29,135 nucleotides of DNA from a virus (IMGVR_UViG_3300028025_003830:1-29135), one strand, 5' to 3'. Shown: positions 129-26,465, counted from the first letter of the stretch. Numbers and translations are program-made. The notes: generated from the sequence alone by a model not told the origin.

Positions 129-1424
129 ATGAATAAAAAAATAGTAATTGTAGGAGCAGGTGTTGCTGGAATAAATGCCGCTACCAAATTAGTAGACAAT
201 GGGTATCCGGGCGAATTAATAACCATTATCGATAAAGGAAGTGATCCACATAATCGTTTACCTGAAGAGGTAATGACGGGTATGCTAGGAGCAGGTGGAT
301 GGTCAGATGGTAAATTAACATACCATACAGCTATCGGAGGTCAATTATCAAAATATTGTGGTGAAGACAAAGCAATGGAGTTAATGGATCAAGTCATTAA
401 TAACTTTAGACGTTTCCACCCTAAACCAGATGAAATATTTTGTTCTAACCCAGTAGAAGAACCTGAGTTTATTAAACCACACTTTGGATTACGTTTATTT
501 CCTGTATGGCATATTGGAAGTAACTATCTACATGAAATTGCTAAAACATGGTATCAATATTTAGTTGAAGCTGGTGTTAAGTTTATGTGGGGTACTGAGG
601 TAACTAGTATTAATTTTGACTTGAACTTAGTACTATATGGTGTTATTAAAACTGCTGTTGGTAAAGGAATACCTTATGATGAACTAATATTTGCTGTAGG
701 CAAATCAGGTATTGACTTTGGTAAAAAGTTAGCTGATGAATATGAATTACCTACAGAACCTAAATCAGTACAAATAGGTGTTCGATTTGAAGCACCACAA
801 AAATATTTCCAAAAATTAATTGATATATCTTATGATTTTAAACTTTACCAGAAATTTGATAACGTGTCTTTGCGTAGCTTTTGTACTAATAATAACGCTG
901 CCTATGTGGCTGTTGAAGAAACTTATGGTGACGTTACTTATAATGGTCATGCTAAAAAAGGTAAAGAATTTAAAAACAATATGACTAATTTCGGCATATT
1001 AATGGAAATTAAAGGTATTGAAAATCCATTTGAGTGGTCTCGTAATGTAGTACAAAAATGTAATTCTGAAGGTAGAGGATTATTTTATTCACCAACTAGA
1101 AAACCATCAATGTCATCGGAAGGAAAATTAGTAAATTCGAAGCGTGTATTTGATCTATCTCAGGTACGATCAGCTATGGGTGAGTACTTCCAATATGTTG
1201 AGAATTTTATTAAAGATATGAATGAAATATTTGAATTTGGTGATGATTGGGGCATGTACATACCAGAAGTAAAATATCTGTCACCTGAACCATTAGTAAA
1301 TTATACTAACTTAGCGTTAACTGAATACCCAAATGTATACTTTGTTGGCGATGCTTTAAGTGCTCGTGGAATTACTGTTTCAGGAGCGCATGGAATATAT
1401 GTTGCTGAATATTTATTAACATGA
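129..1424 (+). CDS. FAD-dependent dehydrogenase of the COG2509 type
   Basis: This 431-aa protein starts with a Rossmann dinucleotide-binding fold: a beta strand followed by GAGVAGINAA (residues 9-18), then an acidic/basic pair (DKG) where FAD ribose is bound. Features typical of COG2509 uncharacterised FAD-dependent dehydrogenases follow in order: a GAGGWSDGKL segment (about 54-63), a GVRFEAPQ segment in the middle, an SFCTNN-type stretch followed by a YNGHA motif, and a C-terminal FVGDALSARGITVSGAHG segment matching the family's second FAD-binding motif. It is somewhat shorter than many cellular members. The family's substrate is not established. Its presence in a phage structural cluster suggests an auxiliary redox enzyme; a role in nucleotide, cofactor or thiol metabolism would be speculation. 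The start has no Shine-Dalgarno sequence but an A/T-rich leader. The stop overlaps the next start as ATGA, so the two genes are probably translationally coupled. Confidence 0.8.
   Translation: MNKKIVIVGAGVAGINAATKLVDNGYPGELITIIDKGSDPHNRLPEEVMTGMLGAGGWSDGKLTYHTAIGGQLSKYCGEDKAMELMDQVINNFRRFHPKPDEIFCSNPVEEPEFIKPHFGLRLFPVWHIGSNYLHEIAKTWYQYLVEAGVKFMWGTEVTSINFDLNLVLYGVIKTAVGKGIPYDELIFAVGKSGIDFGKKLADEYELPTEPKSVQIGVRFEAPQKYFQKLIDISYDFKLYQKFDNVSLRSFCTNNNAAYVAVEETYGDVTYNGHAKKGKEFKNNMTNFGILMEIKGIENPFEWSRNVVQKCNSEGRGLFYSPTRKPSMSSEGKLVNSKRVFDLSQVRSAMGEYFQYVENFIKDMNEIFEFGDDWGMYIPEVKYLSPEPLVNYTNLALTEYPNVYFVGDALSARGITVSGAHGIYVAEYLLT
1408..1417 (+). promoter_or_regulatory. ATATTTATA-type element inside the end of the FAD gene
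   Basis: AATATTTATT, one base from the consensus, lies within the last codons of the preceding gene and is separated by 3 bases from the ATG at 1421. The same spacing is seen before the genes at 12431 and 20211. Confidence 0.35.
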
Positions 1425-2008
1425 CCCCTGTTAATTTAACCTTATCATCTAGGATACCATTCGGCAAATATAAAGACCGATTGGTATCTGATATCCTAAA
1501 ATCACACCCAGAATACCTTAAATGGTTGTGGGTTGAGAAAAAAGCAATTATTCCTGATAATATACTAAAACAAAGACTAAAAGAAAATATGAAAATTAAA
1601 CAATTACGCGAAGCCGTGCGCCAAGTAATTCGTAAAGAATTTAACGAAAATAAGACGTCCGTTTCTAAAACTCAAAAGTATATCTTTGAAGATATTGATG
1701 AAGATAAAATATTACATGAAGGAACTAAAACTGAAATAATGGATTGGATGTGGAAAAAGTTTAGTGATGGATTTGGTGGTATGGAAATTAATCCTGCTGC
1801 TGATATTAACGAAAACCAACCAGCTAAATCTCCTACTCCGTCTCGCCAAGAACCAGCTACTCTTCCAAAACCAAAAACAGATGAACCTGATAAAAAACGT
1901 AGAAGAATAGGAAACCCTGATGTAAAACCGGCTCCTAAAAATTTAAAAGAAGAGGAAATGATTGACAAAATCACAGCTCGTTTTATGAAATCTAAAAAAC
2001 AAAAATAA
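1421..2008 (+). CDS. Small protein with an N-terminal exonuclease-X-C-like (DUF3820-like) domain
   Basis: This 195-aa protein begins with a compact domain, residues about 11-37, that reads IPFGKYKDRLVSDIL followed by HPEYLKWLW. This is the pattern of the small DUF3820 / exodeoxyribonuclease X C-terminal-like domain found fused to or next to phage and bacterial nucleases. No nuclease catalytic domain is present, so the likely role is nucleic-acid or protein binding, not cleavage. A basic helical segment follows (residues about 57-72, KIKQLREAVRQVIRKE), resembling the helical leader peptides of other genes in this window. The remainder is rich in Pro, Lys and Glu and probably disordered until a short C-terminal helix. 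The start overlaps the preceding stop (ATGA) and its own stop overlaps the next start (TAATG), so the gene is the middle of a coupled trio. Function is inferred from the domain only. Confidence 0.65.
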   Translation: MTPVNLTLSSRIPFGKYKDRLVSDILKSHPEYLKWLWVEKKAIIPDNILKQRLKENMKIKQLREAVRQVIRKEFNENKTSVSKTQKYIFEDIDEDKILHEGTKTEIMDWMWKKFSDGFGGMEINPAADINENQPAKSPTPSRQEPATLPKPKTDEPDKKRRRIGNPDVKPAPKNLKEEEMIDKITARFMKSKKQK

Positions 2009-3015
2009 TGAGAAAACGTTTATTAGAAGTAGAATACGAAGATATATTTAAACCTGAAACAATGGCTGCCTTAAAAGGCAAATCAGGTGAATCCTTGCGT
2101 GCTATGTTAGGTGATAAAAATCTAATGCAAACTATGATGCGTTCTCAAGAATTATTAGGACAAATTATAGAAGCTGAATCTGATTACCATATTGAATTAG
2201 CAATGATAGCTGAGATTATGGCTAGAGAAGCATACCCTATTTTAGATTACGCTAATGTAAAAATAGATGCTAAGATAGTAGGTATGGGGGATGTCGAGCA
2301 AAATGATGATGAAGAGGAAGATGAAACCCCAGCAGAAAACGCTCCTATGGAAAAAAAACGCCGTATAATCAACGGTATAACTCAAGGCGCTTCCGTACGT
2401 GGTTCTTTTGGTTTTTTACTATTTAGAGAACATTTAGATGATCTAAGCCCAGAATTAGTTGAGAAATACAACGAAATAATGAAACTAGTTTTTGGTATAT
2501 ATGATGATGAGAATGCTATCGCTATGATGTTAGCTGCTCTTGGTCAAAAACAAAATCTTAGTGGTGGATCATCTGAAATGGTATATGATGAAGCAGAAGA
2601 TAGATTTGTTATCAAAGCAAGAGCTATATGTTTCCCTATGTTATTCCATGAAATTGTAAAAGGTTTATATGAGATTATAGGTACAGAAGGATTCGGATCG
2701 GATAAAGAGCAAAATCAAGCTATTATTAGTAAAATAGATAAAGTATCAAATGAACCTCGTGATTTTCAATACGGTAAATTTATTTATGATGCATTATCAA
2801 ACCTATACAACCAGAGTAATATAAGTGATGCTCGTGTTCGTGAATTATTTTTTGCTGAAGTATATAAATTAGATGATAGGGAATTTATAATCTTTATTGA
2901 AAATTTATTAAATAATAAGTTAAGTCCTAATCAAAAGAAATGGGCATCTGATACAATGAAAGAAATTGAATCTGATTTGAAAAAAGATGATACTGGACTT
3001 TCTAACTTGGATTAG
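2008..3015 (+). CDS. Conserved-looking phage protein of unknown function, 335 aa
   Basis: I do not recognise a named family. The first ~95 residues are predicted helical (starting RKRLLEVEYEDIF). They are followed by a very acidic linker (about residues 97-113, runs of D and E) and then a basic patch KKRR leading into a segment NGITQGASVRGSFGF. The remainder is again mostly helical, with a hydrophobic stretch around FPMLFHEIVKGLYEIIG. There is no signal peptide or membrane span. The acidic linker between helical halves suggests two domains. It is the last gene of the coupled trio (TAATG with the gene before). After its stop come 39 A-rich bases and the next gene, with no terminator between. 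A virion, packaging or DNA-processing role are all possible; nothing in the sequence decides. Confidence 0.6.
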   Translation: MRKRLLEVEYEDIFKPETMAALKGKSGESLRAMLGDKNLMQTMMRSQELLGQIIEAESDYHIELAMIAEIMAREAYPILDYANVKIDAKIVGMGDVEQNDDEEEDETPAENAPMEKKRRIINGITQGASVRGSFGFLLFREHLDDLSPELVEKYNEIMKLVFGIYDDENAIAMMLAALGQKQNLSGGSSEMVYDEAEDRFVIKARAICFPMLFHEIVKGLYEIIGTEGFGSDKEQNQAIISKIDKVSNEPRDFQYGKFIYDALSNLYNQSNISDARVRELFFAEVYKLDDREFIIFIENLLNNKLSPNQKKWASDTMKEIESDLKKDDTGLSNLD

Positions 3016-3054
3016 CAAAAAAAACATATTAACTTCCAAAAAAGAAAGTAAAAT

Positions 3055-3297
3055 ATGACAAAGACACTAAAATCAGGAGACGGAACTATAATACATTATA
3101 GTAACTTAGGAGACACAAATAAATTCCATAATTGGGATGGGCCAGCATTAGTACCACAAGGTAATATGAAGTTAGCAGAATATTACATTTATGGAATTAA
3201 ATATTCAAAAGAAGATTGGATAGAAAGAAAACGAGATACTAACGGTTTACCATGGTTTAAAACAGCTTTAGGTAAAACAGCAGGTGCAAGAGTTTAA
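3055..3297 (+). CDS. Small phage protein with a DGPA / YIYGIKYS-type motif
   Basis: This 80-aa soluble protein has the pattern H-N-W-D-G-P-A (residues about 25-31) followed by a tyrosine-rich strand YYIYGIKYSKEDW. That arrangement, H-x-x-D-G-P-A then Y-x-x-G-x-x-x-x-x-x-W, is common in small phage and bacterial repeat proteins of unknown role. Here a single repeat is present. The C terminus is basic and has no clear structure. There is no Shine-Dalgarno sequence; the leader is A-rich. It is followed 8 bases later by a rho-independent terminator, so it ends a transcription unit. Function unknown. Confidence 0.6.
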   Translation: MTKTLKSGDGTIIHYSNLGDTNKFHNWDGPALVPQGNMKLAEYYIYGIKYSKEDWIERKRDTNGLPWFKTALGKTAGARV

Positions 3298-3305
3298 AAA
3301 AAATT

Positions 3306-3328
3306 AGGGTCGTCAAGACCCTTTTTTT
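3306..3328 (+). terminator. Rho-independent terminator
   Basis: AGGGTC (3306-3311) pairs with GACCCT (3317-3322) around a GTCAA loop, and the last stem base runs into seven T residues. It lies just after the 80-aa gene and only 11 bases before the next ATG (3340), leaving almost no room for a separate promoter. Confidence 0.85.
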
Positions 3329-3339
3329 ATCTTTACAAC

Positions 3340-3570
3340 ATGAGACAATTCGTAAGAACGTTTGAAGATAGTGACGGAACTACATATGTTTGGAAATATG
3401 ATCTAGACAAATTCAGTAGAGGTCCTATAGAAACTACAATTAATTATCCTAAAGAATTTTTATCGGATGATGGAAAACAAAAAAATAATAAAATAGACCA
3501 AAAGTACATAAACCCAGCAAACGGAAAATATGTTGGGTATGGTAGAGCAAAATCATTAGGATTAATATAA
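3340..3570 (+). CDS. Small hypothetical protein, 76 aa
   Basis: No family recognised. The protein is polar and mixed-charge, starting MRQFVRTFEDSDGTTYVWKY, probably a short beta-rich unit, and ending in a basic Gly/Tyr-containing tail (KYVGYGRAKSLGLI). It has no membrane span or cysteine. Its ATG lies 11 bases after the T-run of the upstream terminator, so it is either read through from upstream or begun from a promoter overlapping that terminator. The bases TATCTTTA just before the ATG resemble a Bacteroidota -7 box (TAnnTTTG) with one mismatch. The next gene begins 3 bases after its stop, so the two are probably co-expressed. Confidence 0.5.
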   Translation: MRQFVRTFEDSDGTTYVWKYDLDKFSRGPIETTINYPKEFLSDDGKQKNNKIDQKYINPANGKYVGYGRAKSLGLI

Positions 3571-3573
3571 AAT

Positions 3574-4095
3574 ATGAAAATAGGATTCGCAGGAACAGTT
3601 AGTGTTGGAAAGTCAACACTAGTAAAAACACTAGCAGAGCTAGAGCAATTTAATGGTTATCACGTAGCAACAGAACGTAGTAAATACTTACGTGACCAAG
3701 GAATATTATTAAATGATGATTCAACAACTAAAGGGCAATTTGTATTTGCTGCTGAGCGTAGTTTAGAATTAATGCATGATAATTTGTTAACTGATCGTAC
3801 AATATACGATGTATGTGCATTTACATTAAGCGCTAAATCAATTAGTTATAATGATAAAATTAAATTAATAGAATCATTTGTTACTATAAAAGACGATTAT
3901 GATGTAATTATTTATGTATCACCTGATGGAGTAGATATCGAAGATAACGGTGTTAGAACAACAGATGCTGACTACCGTATGAAAATAGATTTTGCTATTC
4001 GTGGATTACTAAAAGAATACCCACCAGTAAAATTAATAGAAATTAAAGGATCAACAGAAGAACGAATTAATTTAATACTTTCCCAAATAAACTAA
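3574..4095 (+). CDS. P-loop nucleotide kinase / AAA_28-like ATPase
   Basis: A 173-aa single-domain P-loop NTPase. The Walker A motif GTVSVGKST covers residues 7-15. A TERSKYLRDQG segment around residues 34-44 and a TDRTIYDVCAF segment around residues 71-82 match the lid and substrate regions of the AAA_28 / NadR-kinase-like and thymidylate-kinase-like group. A hydrophobic strand YDVIIYVSPD follows, the usual place for the strand next to the nucleotide-binding site. The length is that of a stand-alone deoxynucleotide or nucleoside kinase. The expected reaction is phosphate transfer from ATP to a nucleotide, nucleoside or related small molecule; the substrate cannot be told. It begins 3 bases after the 76-aa gene. 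Phages often carry such kinases to feed nucleotide pools. Confidence 0.7.
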   Translation: MKIGFAGTVSVGKSTLVKTLAELEQFNGYHVATERSKYLRDQGILLNDDSTTKGQFVFAAERSLELMHDNLLTDRTIYDVCAFTLSAKSISYNDKIKLIESFVTIKDDYDVIIYVSPDGVDIEDNGVRTTDADYRMKIDFAIRGLLKEYPPVKLIEIKGSTEERINLILSQIN

Positions 4096-4103
4096 TATTT
4101 ATG
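4094..4103 (+). promoter_or_regulatory. ATATTTATA-type element
   Basis: AATATTTATG overlaps the first possible ATG (4101) of the following reading frame and ends 24 bases before the second ATG (4128). That distance matches the larger-spacing group of this motif and supports 4128 as the real start. Confidence 0.4.
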
Positions 4104-4127
4104 TATACAGAAATAAACGCAAACATT

Positions 4128-5054
4128 ATGACCCCTAAACAAATACGTACTTTGGTCAAAGAAGTAATATCAGAAGCAGGCTTATTCGCATTAAAAAATC
4201 CAGGAGAGACAGCTAAAGGATTAGCAGCAACAATTGATCCTGATGACGCAACTGAAAAATCTTCTGCTTTTCAACAAAAGTATAAAAAAGTAACAGAAAT
4301 GGCTCGTAAAGCTAAAGGATACCAAATTGTAAATCCTGAATTTGATACAACACCATACGCTAATAAGAATATCAGTGGGATATCAATGGCTTCTATCATA
4401 GATTATATTAAAGATAACCCAGGTGTAGAAAAAAAAGATATCCAAACCCAATTTAATTTTGTACGTCCTCAAATAGCTAATGCATTGATAAACGGTTTAA
4501 AAGACGCTGGTATTATCGCTAAAATGGGTGAGATTGAAGTAGATGATGAAACGGGAGAAGTAACAGTAACTGACGAACCAGAAGCTCCTACATCGCGTGC
4601 CGGTGCTGAAGATTTTTTTATTGGTAATAGAACGAGTAATTTTTTCTCAACAGGTGAACCTAGCTTAACGGATGATGAAGATGAAATGGGATTCCCTGAA
4701 GAACCAGAAATTCCGGAATTACCAGCAGATAGACCGCCAGTAGGAGGATTAGCAGATGAAGATTATGCTGCTTGGATGGAATATAATAAACTTAAAGAGC
4801 GTTTAGCTAGAACTAAAAGTGCGTTAATGCAAGCTAAAAAAATGACTAGAGGTAGAGATGATTTATCATTAGATTCTAACGAAATGGAACGTTTAGCTAA
4901 ATTAAAAACATCTCTTGAACAACGTGTTCAAAATGTAGTTGATTCAAGCGAATATGTTAAAAATAAAATTGAACAAAATAAAACTAAATCATCTGAAGAA
5001 GACGAAATAAACGAAAGTATTAAAAGACGTCTTCAACAATTAGCAAACATATAA
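4128..5054 (+). CDS. Hypothetical protein with head-cargo-like N- and C-terminal peptides
   Basis: The frame is open from an ATG at 4101, but 4128 is preferred. The resulting start MTPKQIRTLVKEVISEAG resembles the helical leaders of other genes here, and the upstream element then precedes the start. Residues 6-17 form a short amphipathic helix ending in I-S-E|A, which fits the T4 prohead-protease rule L/I-x-E|A/G. The middle has a winged-helix-like segment (about 80-125: IIDYIKDNPGVEKKDIQTQ, then a second helix) followed by an acidic Pro/Glu-rich linker. The last third is coiled coil. The protein ends in IKRRLQQLANI, nearly the same peptide as the scaffold end (RMQKLANIIK, gene at 14729). No enzymatic motif. 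I infer it may be an internal head protein or DNA-binding cargo; the function is unproven. Confidence 0.6.
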   Translation: MTPKQIRTLVKEVISEAGLFALKNPGETAKGLAATIDPDDATEKSSAFQQKYKKVTEMARKAKGYQIVNPEFDTTPYANKNISGISMASIIDYIKDNPGVEKKDIQTQFNFVRPQIANALINGLKDAGIIAKMGEIEVDDETGEVTVTDEPEAPTSRAGAEDFFIGNRTSNFFSTGEPSLTDDEDEMGFPEEPEIPELPADRPPVGGLADEDYAAWMEYNKLKERLARTKSALMQAKKMTRGRDDLSLDSNEMERLAKLKTSLEQRVQNVVDSSEYVKNKIEQNKTKSSEEDEINESIKRRLQQLANI

Positions 5055-5058
5055 TATA

Positions 5059-5469: not shown

Positions 5470-5470
5470 A

Positions 5471-6133: not shown

Positions 6134-6160
6134 GTATTTTATTTGAAATAATAAACCTTA

Positions 6161-6170
6161 TATATTTATA
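6161..6170 (+). promoter_or_regulatory. TATATTTATA element upstream of terminase
   Basis: Exact match to the recurrent motif, in a 57-base intergenic gap, ending 20 bases before the ATG at 6191. A putative late promoter. Confidence 0.45.
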
Positions 6171-6190
6171 TACAACACATTGTGTAGTAT

Positions 6191-7789
6191 ATGAGTAATC
6201 AACAACAAATTAAGGAGATCATAAAGCAAGAGTATATTAAGTGTGCAACTGATCCAATCCATTTTTTTCGTAAATATTGTTATATAACCCATCCTGTAAA
6301 GGGACGAGTACTATTTCATTTATATCCATTTCAGGCTGATACATTACAAGAAATTAGAGATAATCGCTTTAGTATTATAAATAAATCTCGTCAGTTAGGT
6401 ATATCAACTCTAGTAGCTGGTTACTCATTATGGACTATGTTATTCCATAAAGATAAAACAGTATTGTGTATAGCAACTAAACAAGAAACCGCTAAAGGTA
6501 TGGTTGAAAAAGTACAGTTCATGTACAACAATCTCCCTAGCTGGTTAAAAGGTAATCAAAAACCTATTTCCGATAACAAATTATCACTTAAATTAGCTAA
6601 TAACTCCCAAATAGTAGCTACATCAGCAGCATCAGATGCTGGTCGATCGTACGCAGTATCTTTACTAATAGTGGATGAGGCTGCCTTTATTGAGGGTATC
6701 GATAAAATATACACGAGTATTAAACCTACAATTGCTACTGGTGGTGGTATTATAGCTTTATCTTCACCTAATGGTGTAGGTAATTGGTTTCATAAAATGT
6801 ATACCGAAGCTGAAATAGGTAAAAATGATTTTAAAGCAGTTAGATTACCATGGGATTTACACCCAGACCGTGTAGCTCCAATAGATGAAGGATGGGAACA
6901 ACGTGAACGAGCCAATATGTCACCTCGTGAATTTGCTCAGGAATATGATTGCGACTTTTTAGGCTCAGGTAATACTGTAGTAGATTCAGATGTATTATCA
7001 TTTTATGAACAAACATACATCCAAGAACCTATAGAAAAAAGATTAATGGGTGGTGATTTATGGATATGGCAATATCCGGATTACTCTAAAAGTTATTTAG
7101 TATCCGCAGACGTTGCTCGTGGTGATGGTATGGATTATTCTACGTTCCACGTTATTGATTTAGAAAATTGTGAGCAAGTAGCTGAATATAAGTCACAAGT
7201 TAGTACTCGTGAGTTTGGTCATGTATTGGTAGCTATAGCTAGTGAATATAATAACGCATTACTAGTTGTAGAAAACGCTAATATAGGTTGGGATGTTGTA
7301 AATACAGTTATAGAGCGAGGTTATGCTAATTTATATTATTCACCTAAATCATATGGTGAAATGAATGTAGATAAATGGATGGCTAAGATGGAAAGTGATA
7401 ATACTGTTCCTGGCTTTACTAACTCTACTCGTACAAGACCACTTGTTATCTCAAAGACAGAGACGTATATTAGAGAAAGAACGTTTACGTTCCACTCAAA
7501 ACGATTATTAGAAGAATTACGTGTATTCATTTGGCAAAATGGTAAAGCACAAGCTCAAAATGGATATAATGATGATTTGGTAATGGCATTGGGAATTGGA
7601 TTATTTGTTCGTGATACTGGGTTAAAATTTAGTGCGCAGGGTTTAGATTTAACTAGAGCTGCTGTAATGAATATCAGCAATACTAGAACCCCAAGTATGT
7701 ATACTAACTTACCACATGATTTTCAAAACCCATATCAAATAGATAACGGAGCTGGAGGTATAGAAGATATTAGCTGGTTACTCGGTTAA
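6191..7789 (+). CDS. Terminase large subunit (T4 gp17-like packaging ATPase/nuclease)
   Basis: The 532-aa protein has both terminase halves. ATPase: an adenine-binding-type YPFQ (45-48); a variant Walker A, NKSRQLGIST (64-73), in which the usual lysine before Ser/Thr is Ile and a lysine sits at the front; Walker B LLIVDEA (158-164); and a coupling motif ALSSPNG (189-195). Nuclease (RNase H-like): acidic residues at D307 in SADVARGDG, E361 in LLVVENA, and Asp in NDDLVMALG near residue 463. These match the catalytic pattern of the T4 gp17 nuclease. The enzyme docks on the portal, pumps DNA into the prohead using ATP, and cuts the concatemer. Length is a little under T4 gp17 (610 aa), mainly because the N-terminal extension is short. 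The small subunit (gp16) is not recognised nearby. The portal gene follows directly. Confidence 0.93.
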   Translation: MSNQQQIKEIIKQEYIKCATDPIHFFRKYCYITHPVKGRVLFHLYPFQADTLQEIRDNRFSIINKSRQLGISTLVAGYSLWTMLFHKDKTVLCIATKQETAKGMVEKVQFMYNNLPSWLKGNQKPISDNKLSLKLANNSQIVATSAASDAGRSYAVSLLIVDEAAFIEGIDKIYTSIKPTIATGGGIIALSSPNGVGNWFHKMYTEAEIGKNDFKAVRLPWDLHPDRVAPIDEGWEQRERANMSPREFAQEYDCDFLGSGNTVVDSDVLSFYEQTYIQEPIEKRLMGGDLWIWQYPDYSKSYLVSADVARGDGMDYSTFHVIDLENCEQVAEYKSQVSTREFGHVLVAIASEYNNALLVVENANIGWDVVNTVIERGYANLYYSPKSYGEMNVDKWMAKMESDNTVPGFTNSTRTRPLVISKTETYIRERTFTFHSKRLLEELRVFIWQNGKAQAQNGYNDDLVMALGIGLFVRDTGLKFSAQGLDLTRAAVMNISNTRTPSMYTNLPHDFQNPYQIDNGAGGIEDISWLLG

Positions 7790-7799
7790 CATATTTATT
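7790..7799 (+). promoter_or_regulatory. ATATTTATA-type element upstream of portal
   Basis: CATATTTATT lies directly after the terminase stop codon and ends 19 bases before the portal ATG at 7819. Confidence 0.35.
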
Positions 7800-9717: not shown

Positions 9718-9727
9718 TATATTTATA
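9718..9727 (+). promoter_or_regulatory. TATATTTATA element
   Basis: Exact match to the recurrent motif in the gap after the portal gene, ending 17 bases before the ATG at 9745. Confidence 0.45.
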
Positions 9728-12417: not shown

Positions 12418-12427
12418 AATATTTATA
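12418..12427 (+). promoter_or_regulatory. AATATTTATA element, close to the start codon
   Basis: Exact match to the recurrent motif. Only 3 bases separate it from the ATG at 12431, the same spacing as at 1421 and 20211. Confidence 0.4.
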
Positions 12428-14520: not shown

Positions 14521-14555
14521 AAAATAACCACTCTATCAATAGTATTGTTAGACAG

Positions 14556-14587
14556 ATGCCTCCCCTAAAAAGGAGGCATTTCTTTTT
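14556..14587 (+). terminator. Rho-independent terminator after the protease gene
   Basis: ATGCCTCC (14556-14563) pairs perfectly with GGAGGCAT (14572-14579) around an A-rich 8-base loop, followed by TTCTTTTT. It separates the protease transcript from the scaffold/capsid unit. Confidence 0.9.
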
Positions 14588-14728
14588 GCGTTCTTCGTTA
14601 TTCACATATATGTATATCTGACCACAATGAGCTAATACACATTCTATATTGTAGCTCGGTATTTCAAACAAAATTCTATTAAGATTCCTAATAATCTTAT
14701 TTCCAAAATTAAATTTAAGGAGAAAAAA
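14588..14728 (+). promoter_or_regulatory. Leader region of the scaffold/capsid unit, with two hairpins
   Basis: No gene is supported in this 141-base stretch. It has a hairpin GAGCTA (14629-14634) with TAGCTC (14652-14657) and a second one AAGATT (14681-14686) with AATCTT (14693-14698). The promoter of scaffold and capsid must lie here or upstream because a terminator precedes it, yet no ATATTTATA match is present. A different promoter type may be used. Confidence 0.4.
14717..14722 (+). promoter_or_regulatory. Shine-Dalgarno sequence of the scaffold gene
   Basis: AAGGAG lies 6 bases before the ATG at 14729. It is the only clear Shine-Dalgarno sequence at a gene start in the window. Confidence 0.75.
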
Positions 14729-15762: not shown

Positions 15763-17367
15763 ATGAACATTCAACAATTATTAGAGTCTTCAAACCAATT
15801 TAAATCGGTTCAAGACGATGCAAAACGCCTTCAAACTAAATGGACAAAATCAGGTCTATTGGAAGGTATCAATGATGCAAACAGCCGTAGTACTATGGCT
15901 ATGTTATTGGAAAACCAAGCTAAGCAATTAATCGTAGAAGCTTCTTCAACTGGTAACCAAACCGGTGGAGCAGGTGCTTACAACGGTGAGAGCTGGTCAG
16001 GTGTAGCTTTACCATTAGTTCGCCGTGTATTCGGTGAGATCGCTGCAAAAGAATTCGTTAGTGTACAACCAATGAACTTACCTTCAGGCCTTGTATTCTA
16101 TCTTGATTTCAAATACGGTACTGGTGTTAAACCATTCCAATCAGGCGGATCTTTATACGGTGCTAACGCAAGTACTAACGTAACAGATATTACTTCTCAA
16201 TCACTTTATGGTGCTGGTAAATTTGGTTATTCAATCAACCAATTCTCAGCTTCTATCGCAGCAACAACTGGTTCAACTAGCTGGGCTACATTTAACTTAG
16301 ATGCTGATTACTCATCATCTTTCCCTACTTACAAAGTAATTAACGTTCCTTTACCTACTTCAGCTGATCAAAACGGTGTTCGCGCATTCGTATTTACTTC
16401 AGGTTCAATTACAGGTACTGAAATTTTACAAGCATTTACTACAGTAACTAGCAACACAGCTTCATTCGTAGTAACAGGTTCATTAGTAACTAACACAACT
16501 GGTGCTAGTGCAGGTACAGTAGTATTGTACTATGATGTACAACCTACAGCTACTTCACGTGGTGATTTCGAAGATGCTAGCGGTGCTGGTTATCCTAACG
16601 CTCAAAGTGCTACAACAATTGCTATTCCAGAAATTAACGTTCAGTTAAAATCTGAAGCTATCGTTGCTAAAACACGTAAATTAAAAGCACAATGGACACC
16701 TGAATTTGCTCAAGATTTGAACGCTTACCATTCAGTAGATGCTGAAGCAGAATTAACTGGTATCTTGTCACAATACATTTCAATGGAAATTGATCTTGAA
16801 TTGTTAGACATGTTGATCGAAAATGCTTACACAACTGAATACTGGTCAGCCGTTAACAACCAAGCAGTAGGCGTAAATGGTGTAACTAACAACGCTTTAG
16901 GTTTCTATAATACTCAAGGTGGTTGGTTCCAAACTTTAGGAACTAAATTACAAAAAGTATCTAACAAAATTCATCAGTTGACATTACGCGGTGGCGCTAA
17001 CTTCTTAGTTACTTCACCTACAGTAGCAACTATCTTGGAATCTATTCCTGGATTTGCAGCAGATGGTGATGGCGAGAAAATGGAATTCAACTTTGGTATC
17101 CAAAAGATTGGTTCATTAAACAGCCGTTACAAAGTATACAAAAATCCATACATGACTGAAAACGTAATCTTAATGGGTTACAAAGGTGCTCAGTTCTTAG
17201 AGTGTGGTGCTGTATTTGCTCCATATGTTCCTCTAATCATGACTCCATTATTGTACGATCCAAATACCTTCACTCCACGTAAAGGTTTAATGACTCGCTA
17301 CGCTAAAAAAATGATCAGACCTGATTACTACGGTAAAGTATACGTAGCTGGTTTGAACACTATCTAA
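15763..17367 (+). CDS. Major capsid protein (T4 gp23-like)
   Basis: A 534-aa precursor. Residues 1-59 are a helical prosequence ending L-I-V-E|A (residues 56-60), matching the T4 prohead-protease rule and close to the T4 gp23 cut at residue 65. L-L-E|G at 32-35 is a possible earlier cut. After the cut comes ASSTGNQTGG, then PLVRRVFGEIAAKEFVSVQP and PSGLVFYLDFKYG (about 85-125), classic gp23 signatures of the HK97-type fold. An inserted Ser/Thr-rich domain lies near 140-270. The C-terminal FTPRKGLMTRYAKKMIRPDYYG is also typical. Mature protein would form the hexamers of the head. Codons end in C more often (TTC, AAC, TAC) than in most neighbours, as expected for very high expression. A terminator follows. 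Confidence 0.94.
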   Translation: MNIQQLLESSNQFKSVQDDAKRLQTKWTKSGLLEGINDANSRSTMAMLLENQAKQLIVEASSTGNQTGGAGAYNGESWSGVALPLVRRVFGEIAAKEFVSVQPMNLPSGLVFYLDFKYGTGVKPFQSGGSLYGANASTNVTDITSQSLYGAGKFGYSINQFSASIAATTGSTSWATFNLDADYSSSFPTYKVINVPLPTSADQNGVRAFVFTSGSITGTEILQAFTTVTSNTASFVVTGSLVTNTTGASAGTVVLYYDVQPTATSRGDFEDASGAGYPNAQSATTIAIPEINVQLKSEAIVAKTRKLKAQWTPEFAQDLNAYHSVDAEAELTGILSQYISMEIDLELLDMLIENAYTTEYWSAVNNQAVGVNGVTNNALGFYNTQGGWFQTLGTKLQKVSNKIHQLTLRGGANFLVTSPTVATILESIPGFAADGDGEKMEFNFGIQKIGSLNSRYKVYKNPYMTENVILMGYKGAQFLECGAVFAPYVPLIMTPLLYDPNTFTPRKGLMTRYAKKMIRPDYYGKVYVAGLNTI

Positions 17368-17393
17368 TCTAACTTAACTTAGAAATATAAAGA

Positions 17394-17418
17394 AGCCGAG
17401 CAATGCTCGGCTTTTTTT
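17394..17418 (+). terminator. Rho-independent terminator after the capsid gene
   Basis: AGCCGAGC (17394-17401) pairs perfectly with GCTCGGCT (17405-17412) around an AAT loop and runs into a T tract. With the terminator at 14556 it isolates scaffold and capsid in one unit. Confidence 0.93.
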
Positions 17419-17420
17419 GT

Positions 17421-17430
17421 TATATTTATA
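17421..17430 (+). promoter_or_regulatory. TATATTTATA element upstream of phoH
   Basis: Exact match to the recurrent motif, directly after the capsid terminator and 19 bases before the ATG at 17450. Its position between a terminator and the next gene is what a promoter would need. Confidence 0.55.
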
Positions 17431-17449
17431 CGTAACTAAAATATCGTAT

Positions 17450-18118
17450 ATGAAAGAACCTAATCGTGCTAGAAAAAGTGACATTAAAGCTATTAATGCA
17501 TTGCAATTAAACGAGGAACAAAAAGAAGCTAAACGATTAATTATTGAAAACCAAATCGTAATAGTAACAGGTAGAGCAGGAAGCGGAAAAAGTTTAGTAT
17601 GTGCTCAAGCCGCCTTAGATTTTTTAAAGAAAAAACAAGTAGAATGTATTTATAACACTAGAGCTGCTATTGAAGTTGGCAAAAGTCTAGGATTTCTACC
17701 AGGAGCCTTAAGTGAAAAATTTGATCCATATATGGAAGCGTTAGTAGAAAATCTAATGAAATGCTGTACGGACAAAACTGAAATACCTAAATTAATTGAA
17801 CAAGAAAAAATAAAAGCAATGCCTGTTCAGTTTATTCGTGGTAAAACAATCGATGATATTTTAATAGTAGAGGAAGCACAAAATCTTACTAAAGCAGAAA
17901 TGTTAGCTATATTAACTCGTTTAGGTAAAACAGGTAAAATCGTTATCAATGGTGATAATGAGCAAACTGACATTAAAACTCCTGATGGGCAAGTCAATGG
18001 ATTAACATATGCCATCGAATTATCTAAAAAAATAGATGAAGTTAAGTGGATTAAGTTAAAAGTAAACCATAGATCTGATTTAGTAGGTAAAATACTCGAT
18101 TACGAATACGGAAAATAA
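17450..18118 (+). CDS. phoH: PhoH-like P-loop ATPase
   Basis: The frame is open from 17417 (a TTG inside the terminator T-tract), but the ATG at 17450, after the promoter-like element, is the convincing start and gives 222 aa. Walker A is GRAGSGKS (41-48); Walker B with the PhoH signature is ILIVEEAQN (137-145); a GDNEQTD segment and a final VNHRSDLVGKIL region complete the PhoH core (helicase superfamily I type fold). PhoH proteins are ATPases found in many bacteria and very many phages; their phage role is unsettled, with RNA-linked functions suggested. The domain fills nearly the whole protein, with no PIN or KH extension. It is placed between the capsid gene and the neck genes. Confidence 0.88.
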   Translation: MKEPNRARKSDIKAINALQLNEEQKEAKRLIIENQIVIVTGRAGSGKSLVCAQAALDFLKKKQVECIYNTRAAIEVGKSLGFLPGALSEKFDPYMEALVENLMKCCTDKTEIPKLIEQEKIKAMPVQFIRGKTIDDILIVEEAQNLTKAEMLAILTRLGKTGKIVINGDNEQTDIKTPDGQVNGLTYAIELSKKIDEVKWIKLKVNHRSDLVGKILDYEYGK

Positions 18119-18127
18119 TAATTCTGT

Positions 18128-18137
18128 AATATTTATT
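18128..18137 (+). promoter_or_regulatory. ATATTTATA-type element within an inverted repeat
   Basis: AATATTTATT lies 21 bases before the ATG at 18159. It sits inside an imperfect inverted repeat (18122-18143: TTCTGTAAT, ATTT spacer, ATTACGGAA), which could also form a weak RNA hairpin. Confidence 0.4.
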
Positions 18138-19322: not shown

Positions 19323-19324
19323 CT

Positions 19325-19663: not shown

Positions 19664-20199
19664 TGAGTTTATTTGGAGCCAACAGGGACATGAGTCTATT
19701 CAGACATGTGAATAGAGAATTGCTTAATAATATAATTGAGCAAAAGGTCGGATACTACAAAATAGTATTAGATCGTACTGAATCAAATATGTACGGAGAA
19801 GCTTCGAAAAAAACATATAATAATCCTGTATTGGTTAATTGTTTAATAGAAAGAGGTGATACTACAGCCGCATCAGATGATTTTGGACCTGACATAAGTC
19901 GTAATATTACTTGCCGCTTTTTACGCGATGATCTCGCAGGTATCGACCTAAGCACCGAGCTTGGCGCCGACGGTAGAGGCTTTACATATAACATAGTACC
20001 TGAAATAGGAGACATTGTGTTATGGAATAATGATTATTATGAAGTAGACAACGTTAATGAAAATCAATTAGTAGTAGGTAAAGATTACAACTATTCTTAT
20101 TCTACTAATACTGATAATTTTGGTTCATCATGGTCTATAATAGTAACATGCCATTATATGAGACCAGAAATATCAGGTATAACCCAAGTGAGATTATAA
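19663..20199 (+). CDS. Probable neck protein (T4 gp14-like)
   Basis: A 178-aa mostly beta protein. It starts with a short region ending FRHVNRELLNNIIEQ, then YYKIVLDRTESNMYGEA, then an NPVLVNCLIERGD strand and an FGPDISRNITCRFLRDDL strand. It continues with EIGDIVLWNNDYYEVDNV and a late YNYSYS. The order (tyrosine-rich strand, G-E-A acidic loop, strand, phage-type E-x-G-D-I strand, then F/Y-E-V) matches the layout of T4 gp14-type neck proteins, although it is shorter than T4 gp14 (256 aa). It should help close the filled head for tail joining. The call is pattern- and order-based; a different connector or tail-completion protein is the main alternative. Confidence 0.45.
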   Translation: MSLFGANRDMSLFRHVNRELLNNIIEQKVGYYKIVLDRTESNMYGEASKKTYNNPVLVNCLIERGDTTAASDDFGPDISRNITCRFLRDDLAGIDLSTELGADGRGFTYNIVPEIGDIVLWNNDYYEVDNVNENQLVVGKDYNYSYSTNTDNFGSSWSIIVTCHYMRPEISGITQVRL

Positions 20200-20207
20200 T
20201 ATTTATA
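20198..20207 (+). promoter_or_regulatory. AATATTTATA element, close to the start codon
   Basis: Exact match to the motif. It begins at the preceding stop codon and is separated by 3 bases from the ATG at 20211. Confidence 0.4.
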
Positions 20208-20210
20208 GAT

Positions 20211-21847: not shown

Positions 21848-22230
21848 TGGCATTAATAACCAGTAAACAAATACAGTACCCATTATCAGGGTCATTTAGT
21901 GGATCGTTTAACGGTGATGGTAGTGGCTTAACAAATCTATCAATTAACACAACTCAAATATCATCAGGTAGTGTAACGGCTAGTGTAAGTCCTACTGGTG
22001 ATATATTTTTAGTTAAATCGGCTAGTGCTGAATTTTTAAAAGTAACATCAACCACTACTACTATCACTAATGATGTTTTTTTAATTAAGAATAGTACAAA
22101 CCAAACTACGTTCGCAGTAAGTGAAAGTATAGTATACTTTGCTACTCAATCGAATGTTTTAACTAGTTCAACGATAGCAGGAGGAATGTATTTTACATCA
22201 TCTTCGTTTTATGTAGGATTAGAAAATTAA
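21847..22230 (+). CDS. Small fibre-type virion protein
   Basis: A 127-aa Ser/Thr/Gly-rich protein without cysteines. It starts with a short segment KQIQYPLSGSFSGSFNGDGSG, and residues about 36-75 contain ISSGSVTASV followed by an FLVKSASAEFLKV strand. This is the same unit that occurs twice in the 553-aa protein at 24340. The composition and repeat style are those of beta-strand trimeric fibre segments. It is coupled to the gp15-like gene by TAATG, which suggests a part attached to the tail tip or a fibre subunit or chaperone. It could also be a fragment of an ancestral larger fibre gene. No receptor-binding domain is visible. Confidence 0.55.
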   Translation: MALITSKQIQYPLSGSFSGSFNGDGSGLTNLSINTTQISSGSVTASVSPTGDIFLVKSASAEFLKVTSTTTTITNDVFLIKNSTNQTTFAVSESIVYFATQSNVLTSSTIAGGMYFTSSSFYVGLEN

Positions 22231-22239
22231 ATATTTATA
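22230..22239 (+). promoter_or_regulatory. AATATTTATA element upstream of the 687-aa virion gene
   Basis: Exact match to the motif. It starts on the last base of the preceding stop codon and ends 22 bases before the ATG at 22262. Confidence 0.45.
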
Positions 22240-22261
22240 ATAAATAATAAAATAATATACA

Positions 22262-24325
22262 ATGGCAGAATGGAAAAAAGTCGTAGTCTCAGGATCTGTA
22301 GCAGAGTTACAAAATCATTTCAATGGTGAACCAACATTAAACCCATGGTCATCAGGTCTTGATGGTAGTTACTTTAGTACATTTTCGCCTACTACATATA
22401 CATCAGACGTATTAAGATTTATAGCAGGATTATTAAGCGCATCTGCTCCTGCACCCTCACCAAATACTAGAACATTTGCTAGTATTGGTGAAACTATTAC
22501 AAATAATGGTACGGCAGCAGCACCAGCAGGTTATGTGCCTCAAAATTATAGCAATAGTGATGTAGCATATTTAGTTACTCAAGGTTTCTCAACTGTAGGT
22601 AGTACATTATTTTCAGGAAAAACTATATATAATAACTCAAATTTTAATATAGTTTACAATAGTGTTGCTGGTGGTTCAACAATAGTATCTTCATCAGCCG
22701 ATGCTCAATTATTTGGATTAGGAAGTTTATCTAATGTTCCGTTCCGTGTATCAGGAGCTATCAATTGGTTTTACTCAGACAATAATAGTGAAACATCAAC
22801 TGCTACTTCGCAATCACAAAATTTATTATCATTAGCAACAACAGGTTCTTCAGGTGGTTTAACATTAGGTAAAATAAATACAGCTAACCCATTAGTAATT
22901 CCTCCCGCTTTTCAAGATGGTAAATTTGCTAGTGTATTTAGCTCAGGATTATTTAACAATGGAAGATCATTTACTAATGTAAGTTCATCAGGTTGGTATC
23001 ACGTATCCGCGTCTATTAAAATAAATAGTGGCTCGTCAGCATATACAACAGATAGTACAATTACAGAAAGAGTATTTTTTGCTCCAACAACTACTATTGA
23101 TAGTAATATAGGTAGTAACACATTATCATATACAGGTGGTATAACAGCCTCATTAACCGCAACATCACGCTCATTAAGTGGTGCTCCGTACTTATTAACT
23201 GCTACTTGGTCTCAAATATCTACAGCAAGTGGATTTTTTGCTCCATTGTATGCTTCAAGTACTACAATTGCTGATTTTAATACAGCTAATTCATTAGTAA
23301 CACTAGGTGGTATAAATGCAGCATCAACTAATGGTGGAACAGTTCAAACTTTAAATGCTATATTTGACTCAACAGGAGCAACAGCAAGAAATACTGGTAC
23401 TGTACCTTTTGTAAACGATATTGTTAAATTAAGTGGTAGTGTATCATTTAATGCTGGTTCAAGTGGAGCTACAAACATACAACAAGCTAGTTCTTTATCT
23501 ACAACCACATTTACTGTATTAACAAGAGGTAGAGATAGAAATAGTTCTCAATCAACATTAAATACTCAAACATACCTATTCCACTCAGCAAGTGCATTTG
23601 GACAACCATTAGCTTCAGGCTCATTAGGTTATTACGGTAGAGCACAAGCATATGATGCTGGAACTTTAACTGGAGGATCAGAAACATTTGTTGGTGAAAA
23701 CTTTAGATTAAAAATAGATAGTAATTTCTTATCAGGTTCATATGCCTCAGGTTCTAAATGGACTACAGGTTCATATGATGCCTATAGTTTAGGAGCTGTA
23801 GATCTACAAGTTAAACCAGGATTCTTAGTTAGACCAGGTGGTTCATATGGGTACTGGTTAGCTGACCCAAATAGTGGTAAAACATACAAATACTATGCTA
23901 GAGCATTTAAACGTGATTTAGGCACAGCAGCTACTTCAATGACTATAAATGTTGGTAAAACATTAGTAGCTTGGAACTCAACTTCATCTGGCACAGCAGT
24001 AGCTGTAATGTATGTAAGTTCAACAGCGGGTACTGTCATTCCAGGTGTAGGTACTATCCCACGCGCTCGTATTTTTGATCCATCACAATTAACCTCAGGT
24101 GAAATTGAAACCAGTATAGCTAATGATGACTTTAAAAACCCATTCACTCCTCTTATAGATTTACATGGTAATAATACAGGTACATTAGTTGGAACTACAT
24201 ATACTATGCCTTTAAGAGGCGCGGTAGGTATGGCATTGGATAGTACATACAGAGATTTAATAGTATTGGTAAGATATAATGGTGATCAAGCCCCAGTAAC
24301 AAGCATCTCAGTAACATATTCATAA
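22262..24325 (+). CDS. Large virion/tail-fibre-like structural protein, 687 aa
   Basis: Begins MAEWKKVVVSGSVAELQ, an N-terminal peptide shared in pattern with the fibre-like gene at 26534 (W-K-K-x-V-x-S-G-S-x-A). The body is Ser/Thr/Gly/Ala-rich and beta-type with no cysteine. It has an SGWYHVSASIKINSGSS segment typical of adhesin/carbohydrate-binding-like folds around residues 242-257. A more conserved C-terminal half starts around FRLKIDSNFLSGSYASGS and includes FKRDLGTAATSMTINVG and IPRARIFDPSQLTSGE. The latter half looks like a globular domain, not a fibre shaft. This is probably a tail-spike, fibre or baseplate-associated protein exposed on the virion. The exact role is not determinable. 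Confidence 0.65.
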   Translation: MAEWKKVVVSGSVAELQNHFNGEPTLNPWSSGLDGSYFSTFSPTTYTSDVLRFIAGLLSASAPAPSPNTRTFASIGETITNNGTAAAPAGYVPQNYSNSDVAYLVTQGFSTVGSTLFSGKTIYNNSNFNIVYNSVAGGSTIVSSSADAQLFGLGSLSNVPFRVSGAINWFYSDNNSETSTATSQSQNLLSLATTGSSGGLTLGKINTANPLVIPPAFQDGKFASVFSSGLFNNGRSFTNVSSSGWYHVSASIKINSGSSAYTTDSTITERVFFAPTTTIDSNIGSNTLSYTGGITASLTATSRSLSGAPYLLTATWSQISTASGFFAPLYASSTTIADFNTANSLVTLGGINAASTNGGTVQTLNAIFDSTGATARNTGTVPFVNDIVKLSGSVSFNAGSSGATNIQQASSLSTTTFTVLTRGRDRNSSQSTLNTQTYLFHSASAFGQPLASGSLGYYGRAQAYDAGTLTGGSETFVGENFRLKIDSNFLSGSYASGSKWTTGSYDAYSLGAVDLQVKPGFLVRPGGSYGYWLADPNSGKTYKYYARAFKRDLGTAATSMTINVGKTLVAWNSTSSGTAVAVMYVSSTAGTVIPGVGTIPRARIFDPSQLTSGEIETSIANDDFKNPFTPLIDLHGNNTGTLVGTTYTMPLRGAVGMALDSTYRDLIVLVRYNGDQAPVTSISVTYS

Positions 24326-24339
24326 TATAATATAATAAC

Positions 24340-26001
24340 ATGGCAATTGATAAAACAATAAAATCCAATAGATTACTACAGAGTAGAAGATATACCCAAG
24401 CAGCATTAACAGATGCTCAGGAAGCATTTACTAGTGTATTAGATATTAATTCTAAAGAGATATATGCTCAGGCTAGTTTATTACCAACATCTAGTCTACC
24501 ATTTTCAGGTTCTAGTCAAGATGGAAGTATATATTCTGTTGGAGGACAAAACTTATTAAGATATTGGTATCAACATACATTAACACCATCAAATGTTGTT
24601 AGTGCATCCTTAGTTGATGCCTGGTTTTTTATTAATCCCTCTGCATCCTCAGTAACACCACAGATTGTTCAATCAGGTCAAATAACAGATTTTATATCAA
24701 ATAAATATGCTGTACCGGCTTTAAGTAGTGCAGATGCTCAAGATAATCCTCCAGGTTATAGTGTTGTTGTATTAGTAGATAATGTTAAACAAAACTCAGC
24801 AAATTATCAATTTGATTATAAGGATGGTGTTTTACAATTCAATACCTCAGCACCAAGTTCATCACAAGTAGTTAAAATAACAGCATACCAATATGTTGGT
24901 CAAACTGTAGATACAGTTTTAACTAATTTAAGTGCTTCTATTGCCGGTATAAGTGGTTCAGTAAGTAACTTAAGTAGTAATAAAATTACCACAGGTTCAG
25001 TTACTGCCTCCGTTGATATAGGTTCAACTGTATTCTCACTAGTAAGTAGTTCAAATACTTTATTTAGTATTAGTAATGCAGGTTTAATATCAGGATCAAC
25101 TTTAGTAGTATCTTCAGTAACTGCTTCTGTATTAGGAACAGCATCATTTGCTTCAACAGCTTCATATGTAAATACATTAAACCAAAATGTAATTATTTCA
25201 GGTACTTTAGATTTAGCTCTAGGTGGAGGTGCATCATCAAATTTAGCAATTGCTGGAAATGGATTTAGCCAGACTTACTTAAGTACAAATGGTGCTTTAG
25301 TACTTAATCCAGGAAGTGGTGGTGTAGGAATGGCTGGAGTAAATCAATACCTAACATTAGCTTACATTCAAGGTCAAACTGCTGGATCATATTTAACGGG
25401 TTCATTATTAGGGACAGCATCATTTGCTATATCTTCTTCAAATGCTGCGACAGCATCATATGTTCCCGCATCAGCAGTAGTAGGTTTAAATTTATCTCAA
25501 ATATCTACAGGATCTATTACCGCATCCGTTTTAATTAATTCATCTACAGCATTTAGTGTTGTAAGTGGTTCAACCACATTACTAAGTGTTAATACAGCTA
25601 GTATGGTTACTGTTTCTAATTTAACAGTATCTGAAAACTTAATAGTAAATGGTACAGCATCATTTATTAACACTGAAAATTTATTAGTAAAAGATCCATT
25701 TATATTAATTAATTCTGGCTCAGCCAATTTAACAGATTCAGGTATTGTTTCTCAATATAACTCAAGTGGAGAAGGATCAGCTATATATATTGAAGCTACT
25801 GATACTGGTACTTATGGTAGATGGGCGGTCGCTTATGGTGTACAACAAGGATTTGTTTCAGTAACAGCTGATGAATATATGGTAACAGCTAAAAAAGCAT
25901 CTGGAGTACCTCCAGCGACACCAACATGGGGTGGTACTACTAATGGTTTTGGTAACATCTATGTGAATAGTGATAATGGTGAAGTTTATATTTACACTTA
26001 A
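24340..26001 (+). CDS. Tail-fibre-like structural protein with internal repeats, 553 aa
   Basis: The N-terminal ~180 residues form a different, globular-looking domain (MAIDKTIKSNRLLQSRR at the start, later NPPGYSVVVLVDNVKQNSAN). The rest is Ser/Thr/Gly/Ala-rich. Two copies of a unit I-S/T-T-G-S-V/I-T-A-S-V followed by a hydrophobic strand and SGSTTLLSV-type end are present, and two copies of a G-T-A-S-F-A block (around 25132-25165 and 25399-25430). The C-terminal region from SENLIVNGTASFINTENLL to the end resembles head or tip domains of phage fibres, with the final strand NSDNGEVYIYT. It starts 14 bases after the previous stop without Shine-Dalgarno. Likely role: fibre or adhesin on the tail; receptor unknown. 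Confidence 0.65.
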   Translation: MAIDKTIKSNRLLQSRRYTQAALTDAQEAFTSVLDINSKEIYAQASLLPTSSLPFSGSSQDGSIYSVGGQNLLRYWYQHTLTPSNVVSASLVDAWFFINPSASSVTPQIVQSGQITDFISNKYAVPALSSADAQDNPPGYSVVVLVDNVKQNSANYQFDYKDGVLQFNTSAPSSSQVVKITAYQYVGQTVDTVLTNLSASIAGISGSVSNLSSNKITTGSVTASVDIGSTVFSLVSSSNTLFSISNAGLISGSTLVVSSVTASVLGTASFASTASYVNTLNQNVIISGTLDLALGGGASSNLAIAGNGFSQTYLSTNGALVLNPGSGGVGMAGVNQYLTLAYIQGQTAGSYLTGSLLGTASFAISSSNAATASYVPASAVVGLNLSQISTGSITASVLINSSTAFSVVSGSTTLLSVNTASMVTVSNLTVSENLIVNGTASFINTENLLVKDPFILINSGSANLTDSGIVSQYNSSGEGSAIYIEATDTGTYGRWAVAYGVQQGFVSVTADEYMVTAKKASGVPPATPTWGGTTNGFGNIYVNSDNGEVYIYT

Positions 26002-26005
26002 ACAA

Positions 26006-26015
26006 TATATTTATA
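26006..26015 (+). promoter_or_regulatory. TATATTTATA element
   Basis: Exact match to the motif, 4 bases after the preceding stop codon and 11 bases before the ATG at 26027. It supports that ATG over the upstream in-frame start at 25970. Confidence 0.45.
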
Positions 26016-26026
26016 ATAAAATAGTT

Positions 26027-26221
26027 ATGGCTTTTACAGCAAACAACATACAAACAGCAAATAGCAAAGAAATTCCTCTATCTCCATCGCAACTAAACGC
26101 GAAGGAGATAGAAATTTTACTTTCTTTAATAAAAAGATCAACATTCCTTGGAGAAGACGTAGAAATTATTTATAATATGGTAATTAAACTCCAAAATCAA
26201 TATTTAGATCAAACAAAATAA
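26027..26221 (+). CDS. Small helical protein, paralogue A
   Basis: The frame is open from 25970, but the ATG at 26027 after the promoter-like element gives a clean 64-aa product, MAFTANNIQTANSKEIPLSP onwards. Residues 18-58 (LSPSQLNAKEIEILLSLI then GEDVEIIYNMVIKLQ) align by eye with the 73-aa product of the next gene: L-S/T-P-x-x-L, a helix, a short loop with G-x-D, and a second helix. Both look like two-helix hairpins that could form a bundle. No motif for enzyme or membrane. It lies between two fibre genes, so an assembly or chaperone role is possible but unproven. Confidence 0.6.
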   Translation: MAFTANNIQTANSKEIPLSPSQLNAKEIEILLSLIKRSTFLGEDVEIIYNMVIKLQNQYLDQTK

Positions 26222-26228
26222 TTAAGTT

Positions 26229-26450
26229 ATGAATATATTTTCAATCGATTTAACTCCTAATGAGTTAAACTTCATTCGTCAATCTTTAGAAACGGTACAG
26301 ATATCAGGTAAAGATGCTAAATTCTTAGCTACTCTACAAGTAAAAATAGAGCATGAATTATCTGAAATTCAAAGAATGGTTAATGAAGAAGAACAAAAGA
26401 AAATGACATCGCTATCAGAAACAATAGCGAAAAGCTCAAATAAAAAATAA
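26229..26450 (+). CDS. Small helical protein, paralogue B
   Basis: 73 aa, MNIFSIDLTPNELNFIRQSL onwards. It repeats the pattern of the preceding gene (L-T-P-x-E-L, helix, G-x-D, helix) and adds a charged C-terminal helix (EEEQKKMTSLSETIAK) that could form a coiled coil. It starts 7 bases after the stop of paralogue A, so the two are co-transcribed and probably arose by tandem duplication. Possible partners in a small hetero-complex or fibre assembly factors; no function is recognised. Confidence 0.6.
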   Translation: MNIFSIDLTPNELNFIRQSLETVQISGKDAKFLATLQVKIEHELSEIQRMVNEEEQKKMTSLSETIAKSSNKK

Positions 26451-26455
26451 TTTTC

Positions 26456-26465
26456 AATATTTATA
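26456..26465 (+). promoter_or_regulatory. AATATTTATA element upstream of the last gene
   Basis: Exact match to the motif, 68 bases before the ATG at 26534. This is the longest leader among the motif-bearing genes, and it holds the hairpins listed next. Confidence 0.45.

Follow-up and report, generated by a model that had tools for sequence, protein, structure and literature searches.

The closest described counterparts of the element analysed here are the late promoters of bacteriophage T4, whose box TATAAATA sits at positions -13 to -6 (PMC2988020), and the sigma-A promoters of Bacteroidota, which combine a TTTG at -33 with a box TAnnTTTG, placed at -12 to -5 in Flavobacterium (PMC9723704). 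A T4 late promoter consists of a single AT box one helical turn before the transcription start (+1), has no -35 element, recurs tens of times in a genome upstream of virion genes and is served by a phage-encoded sigma region-2 protein of the gp55 type. The late promoters of cyanophages and other Exo-T4 phages (ATAAATA type) are likewise one-box, gp55-dependent elements in T4-like phages of non-enteric hosts, and they retain the AAA core of T4. Here we describe the 8-mer ATATTTAT, a box with TTT in its core, which recurs before genes of IMGVR_UViG_3300028025_003830, a 29-kb viral record (29,135 nucleotides, the whole of which we call the window). We put the probability at roughly 0.8 that this box (ATATTTAT, or TATATTTA(T) in start-site register) is a one-box middle or late promoter of an Immutovirus/Far-T4-type Bacteroidota phage, opened by a gp55-like sigma factor. 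The kind of element would then be a known one, the T4-type late promoter, and the TATATTTA core and a previously unrecognised relative of gp55 would be new. No earlier description of the box was found in the open literature searched, and the Far-T4 genome paper makes no mention of a promoter, a motif or gp55. Far-T4-type phages are widespread in aquatic environments, and how their genes are switched on was not found described in the literature searched; a defined box with a candidate sigma factor would permit operon maps for hundreds of environmental contigs. It would also allow co-evolution of sigma factor and promoter to be tested between T4 and a phylum whose primary sigma factor is unusual, and may exemplify T4-like late transcription that does without a sliding clamp.

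The window holds the head, neck and tail module of a T4-related myovirus according to PHROG matches, with a gp17-type terminase, a gp20-type portal protein, a protease, a gp23-type capsid protein, PhoH and a neck protein among the recognised genes. An affiliation with T4, already proposed in the initial annotation, is thereby borne out, and the Immutovirus/Far-T4 type is indicated by T4-type head genes nearest to those of Flavobacterium phage immuto and by the PHROG matches of terminase, portal and protease. Identity of the major capsid protein (MCP) is 60% to immuto, 50% to Microcystis phage Mel-JY01 and 39% to Rhodothermus phage RM378. Bacteroidota hosts have been linked to Far-T4 phages (PMC7198788). 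The record being only 29 kb, genome-wide tests were run on relatives, namely the IMG/VR genomes G001 (172 kb) and G002 (170 kb) and immuto; another long relative, G003, is stored inverted.

The element was originally delimited as WATATTTATA, and this 10-mer is indeed present in nine exact copies, all on the plus strand. Eight (6161, 9718, 12418, 17421, 20198, 22230, 26006 and 26456) occupy gaps or gene junctions, and the ninth (27357) is within an open reading frame (ORF); whole-window shuffles give a mean of 2.4, and 0 of 100 reach nine. The conserved core ATATTTAT is shorter. Four further sites at 1408, 4094, 7790 and 18128 are genuine copies as well, not variants as first thought, since they contain exact ATATTTAT at 1409, 4095, 7791 and 18129. 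In the window ATATTTAT occurs 13 times forward and once in reverse; the total of 14 against 10.2 expected is unremarkable alone, and the signal thus resides in position and strand rather than in the whole-window count. Copies wholly or partly intergenic number 11 forward and 0 reverse, against 0.87 +/- 0.88 (maximum 5, n = 200) in dinucleotide shuffles. The corresponding forward/reverse counts are 50/2 in G001, 47/8 in G002 and 23/1 in immuto (shuffle means 4.5, 3.4 and 2.4, and 0.9 for the window). Enrichment in relatives, which the initial annotation had put forward as a check, also holds for the 10-mer (26/0 in G001, 23/1 in G002 and 0/22 in the inverted G003). Moreover, no upstream 8-mer in the pooled set is more sense-enriched than ATATTTAT (116 sense vs 6 antisense), which also ranks first in several individual relatives, among them Mel-JY01 (19 sense, 1 antisense).

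Among the 116 pooled sites, counted with those having the ATG itself at offset 12 left out, the base 12 nt after the first A of ATATTTAT is a purine in 92% (A 78%, G 14%), and offset 11 of the same sites is almost never G. No strongly conserved column is found upstream of ATATTTAT in these sites, and no -35/-33 element is evident. Because the purine is tied to the box and not to the start codon, the box can be placed at -13 to -5 (W-A-T-A-T-T-T-A-T), with the purine at offset 12 as the +1 that we infer from sequence. An AT box thus stands about one turn before the putative start without a -35 element. In this register it reads TATATTTA at -13 to -6, or TATATTTA(T) at -13 to -5, that is, on the same strand and in the same register as TATAAATA of T4, with AA changed to TT at -9/-8; six of the eight positions agree when W is T, as in about half of the sites, whereas -9/-8 differ. 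The Flavobacterium sigma-A box occupies a near-identical place, from which the phage box departs by the final G and a one-base shift.

A fixed orientation and spacing also bear on the idea that ATATTTAT is an operator for some other phage regulator, activator or repressor, which happens to adjoin promoters. The 8-mer is AT-rich and nearly mirror-symmetric, and short repeats are bound by many phage regulators; however, the box is not dyad-symmetric, and both its orientation to transcription (116:6) and its distance to the purine are constant, which leaves an operator extremely improbable.

The initial annotation had taken the element for the T4 late core in reverse complement, and this part of it has to be abandoned. 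The sense core is ATATTTAT, and the T4 consensus TATAAATA is enriched in antisense instead of sense (sense/antisense 0/5 in the window, 4/29 in G001, 6/27 in G002 and 8/25 in immuto). The TATTTATA frame is less strand-biased than ATATTTAT (85 sense and 17 antisense vs 116 and 6), and the A trailing ATATTTAT is found at only about 60% of the sites. The appearance of a reverse complement arises because ATATTTATA is mirror-symmetric, so that ATATTTAT(A) happens to contain TATTTATA.

Conservation among relatives is seen upstream of the terminase gene, where exact ATATTTAT is kept in 74 of 76 relatives, mostly 4 nt or 13-23 nt 5' of the ATG, amid divergent flanking DNA. Of 55 distinct sequences, 47 have a terminator-like hairpin with a T tract immediately 5' of this box, an arrangement found at 3-8% of random intergenic positions. 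A box held between such a terminator and an ATG 4 nt downstream must itself be the promoter, in full or in part. The location of the copy at 17421 between a strong terminator and phoH, to which attention had been drawn before, is confirmed, as that terminator abuts the box. A gap of 4 nt between box and ATG moreover predicts leaderless mRNA, in the window for the ORFs at 1421, 12431 and 20211. Presence or absence of the box at a given gene is largely shared between the window and its relatives, and box-less window genes are box-less elsewhere too (protease 0/23, MCP 0/19, kinase 0/39). It is very probable from these patterns that ATATTTAT is a promoter. The view that it serves virion and other non-early genes is upheld, but a strictly late role is not, as copies also precede the single-strand-binding-protein gene (G001) and others; 'non-early (middle or late)' is hence the safer label for its presumed timing.

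The same junctions speak to whether ATATTTAT could instead act in RNA, as a signal AUAUUUAU for processing, stability or translation within the 5' leaders of transcripts that begin elsewhere. Such a signal would be strand-specific and near start codons, as the box is, AU-rich RNA elements can serve as nuclease sites, and the capsid leader has structured RNA from offset 8. Nevertheless, the terminators abutting the box at most terminase junctions and at phoH leave no space for another promoter, and the purine signal follows the box, not the ATG. We consider an RNA-level element very unlikely.

Upstream regions without ATATTTAT yield a second, two-box motif with genome-specific extensions: GTTG-N-TTC.TATATTTAGGTA in immuto, TTTGG..GTCAAA..TATATTTACA in G001 and GGCAAAAT..CGTATATTCAC in G002. 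Two-box promoters precede many small genes at 60.9-77 kb of immuto (L089-L092), at 94-121.5 kb of G001, and from 161.5 kb to the end plus 1-5.3 kb of G002. These regions contain 21 of 36 two-box sites vs 1 of 23 ATATTTAT sites in immuto, 21/30 vs 2/50 in G001 and 27/32 vs 2/47 in G002, a contrast for which Fisher tests are partly circular, the early region having been picked after the sites were seen and the early search having left out upstream regions with ATATTTAT. The two-box class probably represents early, host-type promoters, and the two-class layout resembles the T4 scheme of host-type early and one-box late promoters.

Given such a host-like class, ATATTTAT might be a variant host promoter as well, its -7 element TAnnTTTG having A in place of G, which the primary sigma factor of the host would read without any phage sigma. 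TATATTTA fits TAnnTTT, the presumed early class has the same TATATTTA core, and the sigma-A box is found at nearly the same position (PMC9723704). The polymerase core is likely that of the host. However, the final G is unused: TAnnTTTG is found in 0-7 sense vs 3-12 antisense upstream regions, and for want of sense enrichment it was also rejected as a general promoter of these phages. No TTTG at -33 accompanies ATATTTAT, whereas the two-box class does have an upstream element and is the more host-like of the two, and every relative searched carries a conserved phage sigma-like gene. A host promoter of this type is therefore unlikely.

The preferred account, a T4-type promoter opened by a phage sigma factor, would run as follows. 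Host RNA polymerase core together with a gp55-like sigma region-2 protein of the phage would open the box at the T4 late-box position (-13 to -5) without need for a -35 element; transcription would start on the purine 12 nt downstream of the first A, and an ATG situated exactly there would give a leaderless mRNA. The candidate protein came from a weak Sigma70_r2 match in G002 (E 0.0018; the only genome found with Sigma70_r2 alone), which pointed to a protein of 259 aa whose homologues occur in G001, immuto (gp118, 'hypothetical'), Mel-JY01, LR756508, RM378 and hundreds of IMG/VR contigs. The gene is present in every relative searched, with one copy per related genome tested. When the 633 T4 ORFs are ranked by a profile of this family, gp55 comes first; reciprocally, a T4 gp55 profile places the family member at the top in G002, immuto and LR756508 and in second place in G001 and Mel-JY01. 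Profile-profile comparison (hhalign) of the two gives E 1.5e-5 and a probability of 79% over 98 columns in co-linear order. The Pfam domain Sigma70_r2 matches 13 of 24 family members (best E 6.2e-6), and structure matches of the model, which is of medium confidence (predicted local distance difference test, pLDDT, 71), are mostly sigma factors. The phage sigma factor has probably changed, in line with one of the two options weighed in the initial annotation, and the gp55-like protein probably is the factor that reads the box.

In RM378 (NC_004735) the gp55-like ORF is located at 17032-17823 (+), besides the annotated sigma factor at 128329-128928. UPI00000381BA, the best structure match in BFVD, is of the same length as this gp55-like ORF and probably corresponds to it. 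The annotated sigma factor (phrog_1740) was tried as a counterpart and rejected, having no homologue in immuto, G001 or G002.

In T4 gp55 the C-terminus is a clamp-binding tail; the gp55-like protein has a conserved part in its place, an additional helical domain that looks like a helix-turn-helix by inspection. Neither a T4-type clamp (PF02916) nor a beta clamp (PF02767) gave a match in G001, G002, immuto, Mel-JY01 or RM378, although a very diverged clamp could escape such a search, in which T4 itself was positive for PF02916. The lack of such a clamp and the different C-terminal domain suggest that clamp-coupled activation is probably absent. On balance we lean towards T4-type late transcription rewired for Bacteroidota, in which a gp55 relative with an added DNA-binding-like C-terminal domain would work without clamp coupling, TATAAATA would have given way to TATATTTA, a box halfway towards the host TAnnTTTG, and many virion mRNAs would start at the start codon or a few bases before it.

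Several observations weigh against the preferred account. The homology to gp55 is weak per sequence, and single-sequence Pfam and PHROG matches are marginal; no PDB hit below 0.001 was obtained with Foldseek for the structure model, and searching PDB sequences with the sigma profile yielded no useful match. For this phage we infer the sigma gene from relatives, as it falls outside the window. RM378 and LR756508 carry the gp55-like gene, yet the ATATTTAT signal is absent from RM378 and from the 180 kb examined of LR756508, so the pairing of sigma and motif is not universal. As an exception to the conservation described above, the box of ORF 12431 is present in only 3 of 14 relatives. Finally, at the capsid operon, where the box stands about 120 nt before the ATG, a co-varying hairpin of the relatives begins at offset 8, four bases upstream of the putative +1 (93% of cells paired and double changes in four pairs, far more than in slid controls). 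This hairpin is at odds with a simple start at offset 12; transcription begins at another position there, or else the RNA originates farther upstream.

The scaffold/capsid leader (14608-14728 in the window; L019, L022, L051, L071 and others among the relatives) consists of ATATTTAT followed by a hairpin of segments 1 and 2 with a T tract. A third segment repeats segment 1 and is able to pair with segment 2, an attenuator-like, co-varying arrangement in which the segment match is 6.3 nt within a phage and 4.0 when segments are swapped between phages. The window has a divergent form lacking hairpin 1, with ATATGTAT after a terminator at 14554-14581, where most relatives carry ATATTTAT at the equivalent place. 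No Rfam family matched the capsid leader, or the window as a whole at gathering scores.

Table 1. Box copies and associated features of the window. The predicted +1 is 12 nt after the first A of ATATTTAT throughout.
Feature	Position	Strand	Predicted +1	Remarks
ATATTTAT, ORF 1421-2008	1409..1416	+	1421, A of ATG (leaderless)	kept in 5/5 relatives
ATATTTAT, overlapping listed ATG 4101 (ORF 4101-5054)	4095..4102	+	4107	kept in 17/18 relatives
ATATTTAT, terminase large subunit	6162..6169	+	6174	exact in 74/76 relatives
Terminase large subunit (T4 gp17 type)	6191..7789	+		phrog_2, E 2.9e-51
ATATTTAT, portal gene	7791..7798	+	7803	kept in 59/60 relatives
ATATTTAT, ORF 9745	9719..9726	+	9731	kept in 47/48 relatives
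ATATTTAT, ORF 12431	12419..12426	+	12431, A of ATG (leaderless)	arrangement shared with G001
ATATGTAT, one-base variant, scaffold ORF 14729/MCP unit	14608..14615	+		121 nt before ORF 14729
Intrinsic terminator 3' of MCP gene	17389..17417	+		13-pair stem, T tract, -16.3 kcal/mol; abuts phoH box
ATATTTAT, phoH	17422..17429	+	17434	right after strong terminator; kept in 6/7 relatives
ATATTTAT, neck protein gene 18159	18129..18136	+	18141	kept in 4/4 relatives
ATATTTAT, ORF 20211	20199..20206	+	20211, A of ATG (leaderless)	likewise in G001
ATATTTAT, ORF 22262	22231..22238	+	22243	likewise in G001
ATATTTAT, ORF with ATG 26027	26007..26014	+	26019	likewise in G001
ATATTTAT, ORF 26534	26457..26464	+	26469	likewise in G001
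ATATTTAT copy within ORF 26534-29134	27358..27365	+		no junction there

Two entries of Table 1 call for comment. The box overlapping the listed ATG at 4101 has its predicted +1 downstream of that codon, and translation therefore probably begins at the in-frame ATG 4128 (M10 of the ORF), and the copy within ORF 26534-29134 is probably a chance occurrence.

A strong Shine-Dalgarno sequence, AAGGAG, precedes the scaffold gene at 14717-14722. Such sites are rare here (2/30 genes in the window and 6/244 in G001), as they are in Bacteroidota generally, and Mel-JY01 encodes ribosomal protein S21 just 5' of its scaffold/capsid genes. The listed host of Mel-JY01 (PP395634; L112, L197) is the cyanobacterium Microcystis elabens, yet it agrees with Bacteroidota phages in head genes, promoter box and sigma factor; its assignment to this host may be worth checking. 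The window also encodes, at 129-1424 and thus 5' of the terminase module, a NAD/FAD dehydrogenase-like protein (phrog_12409).

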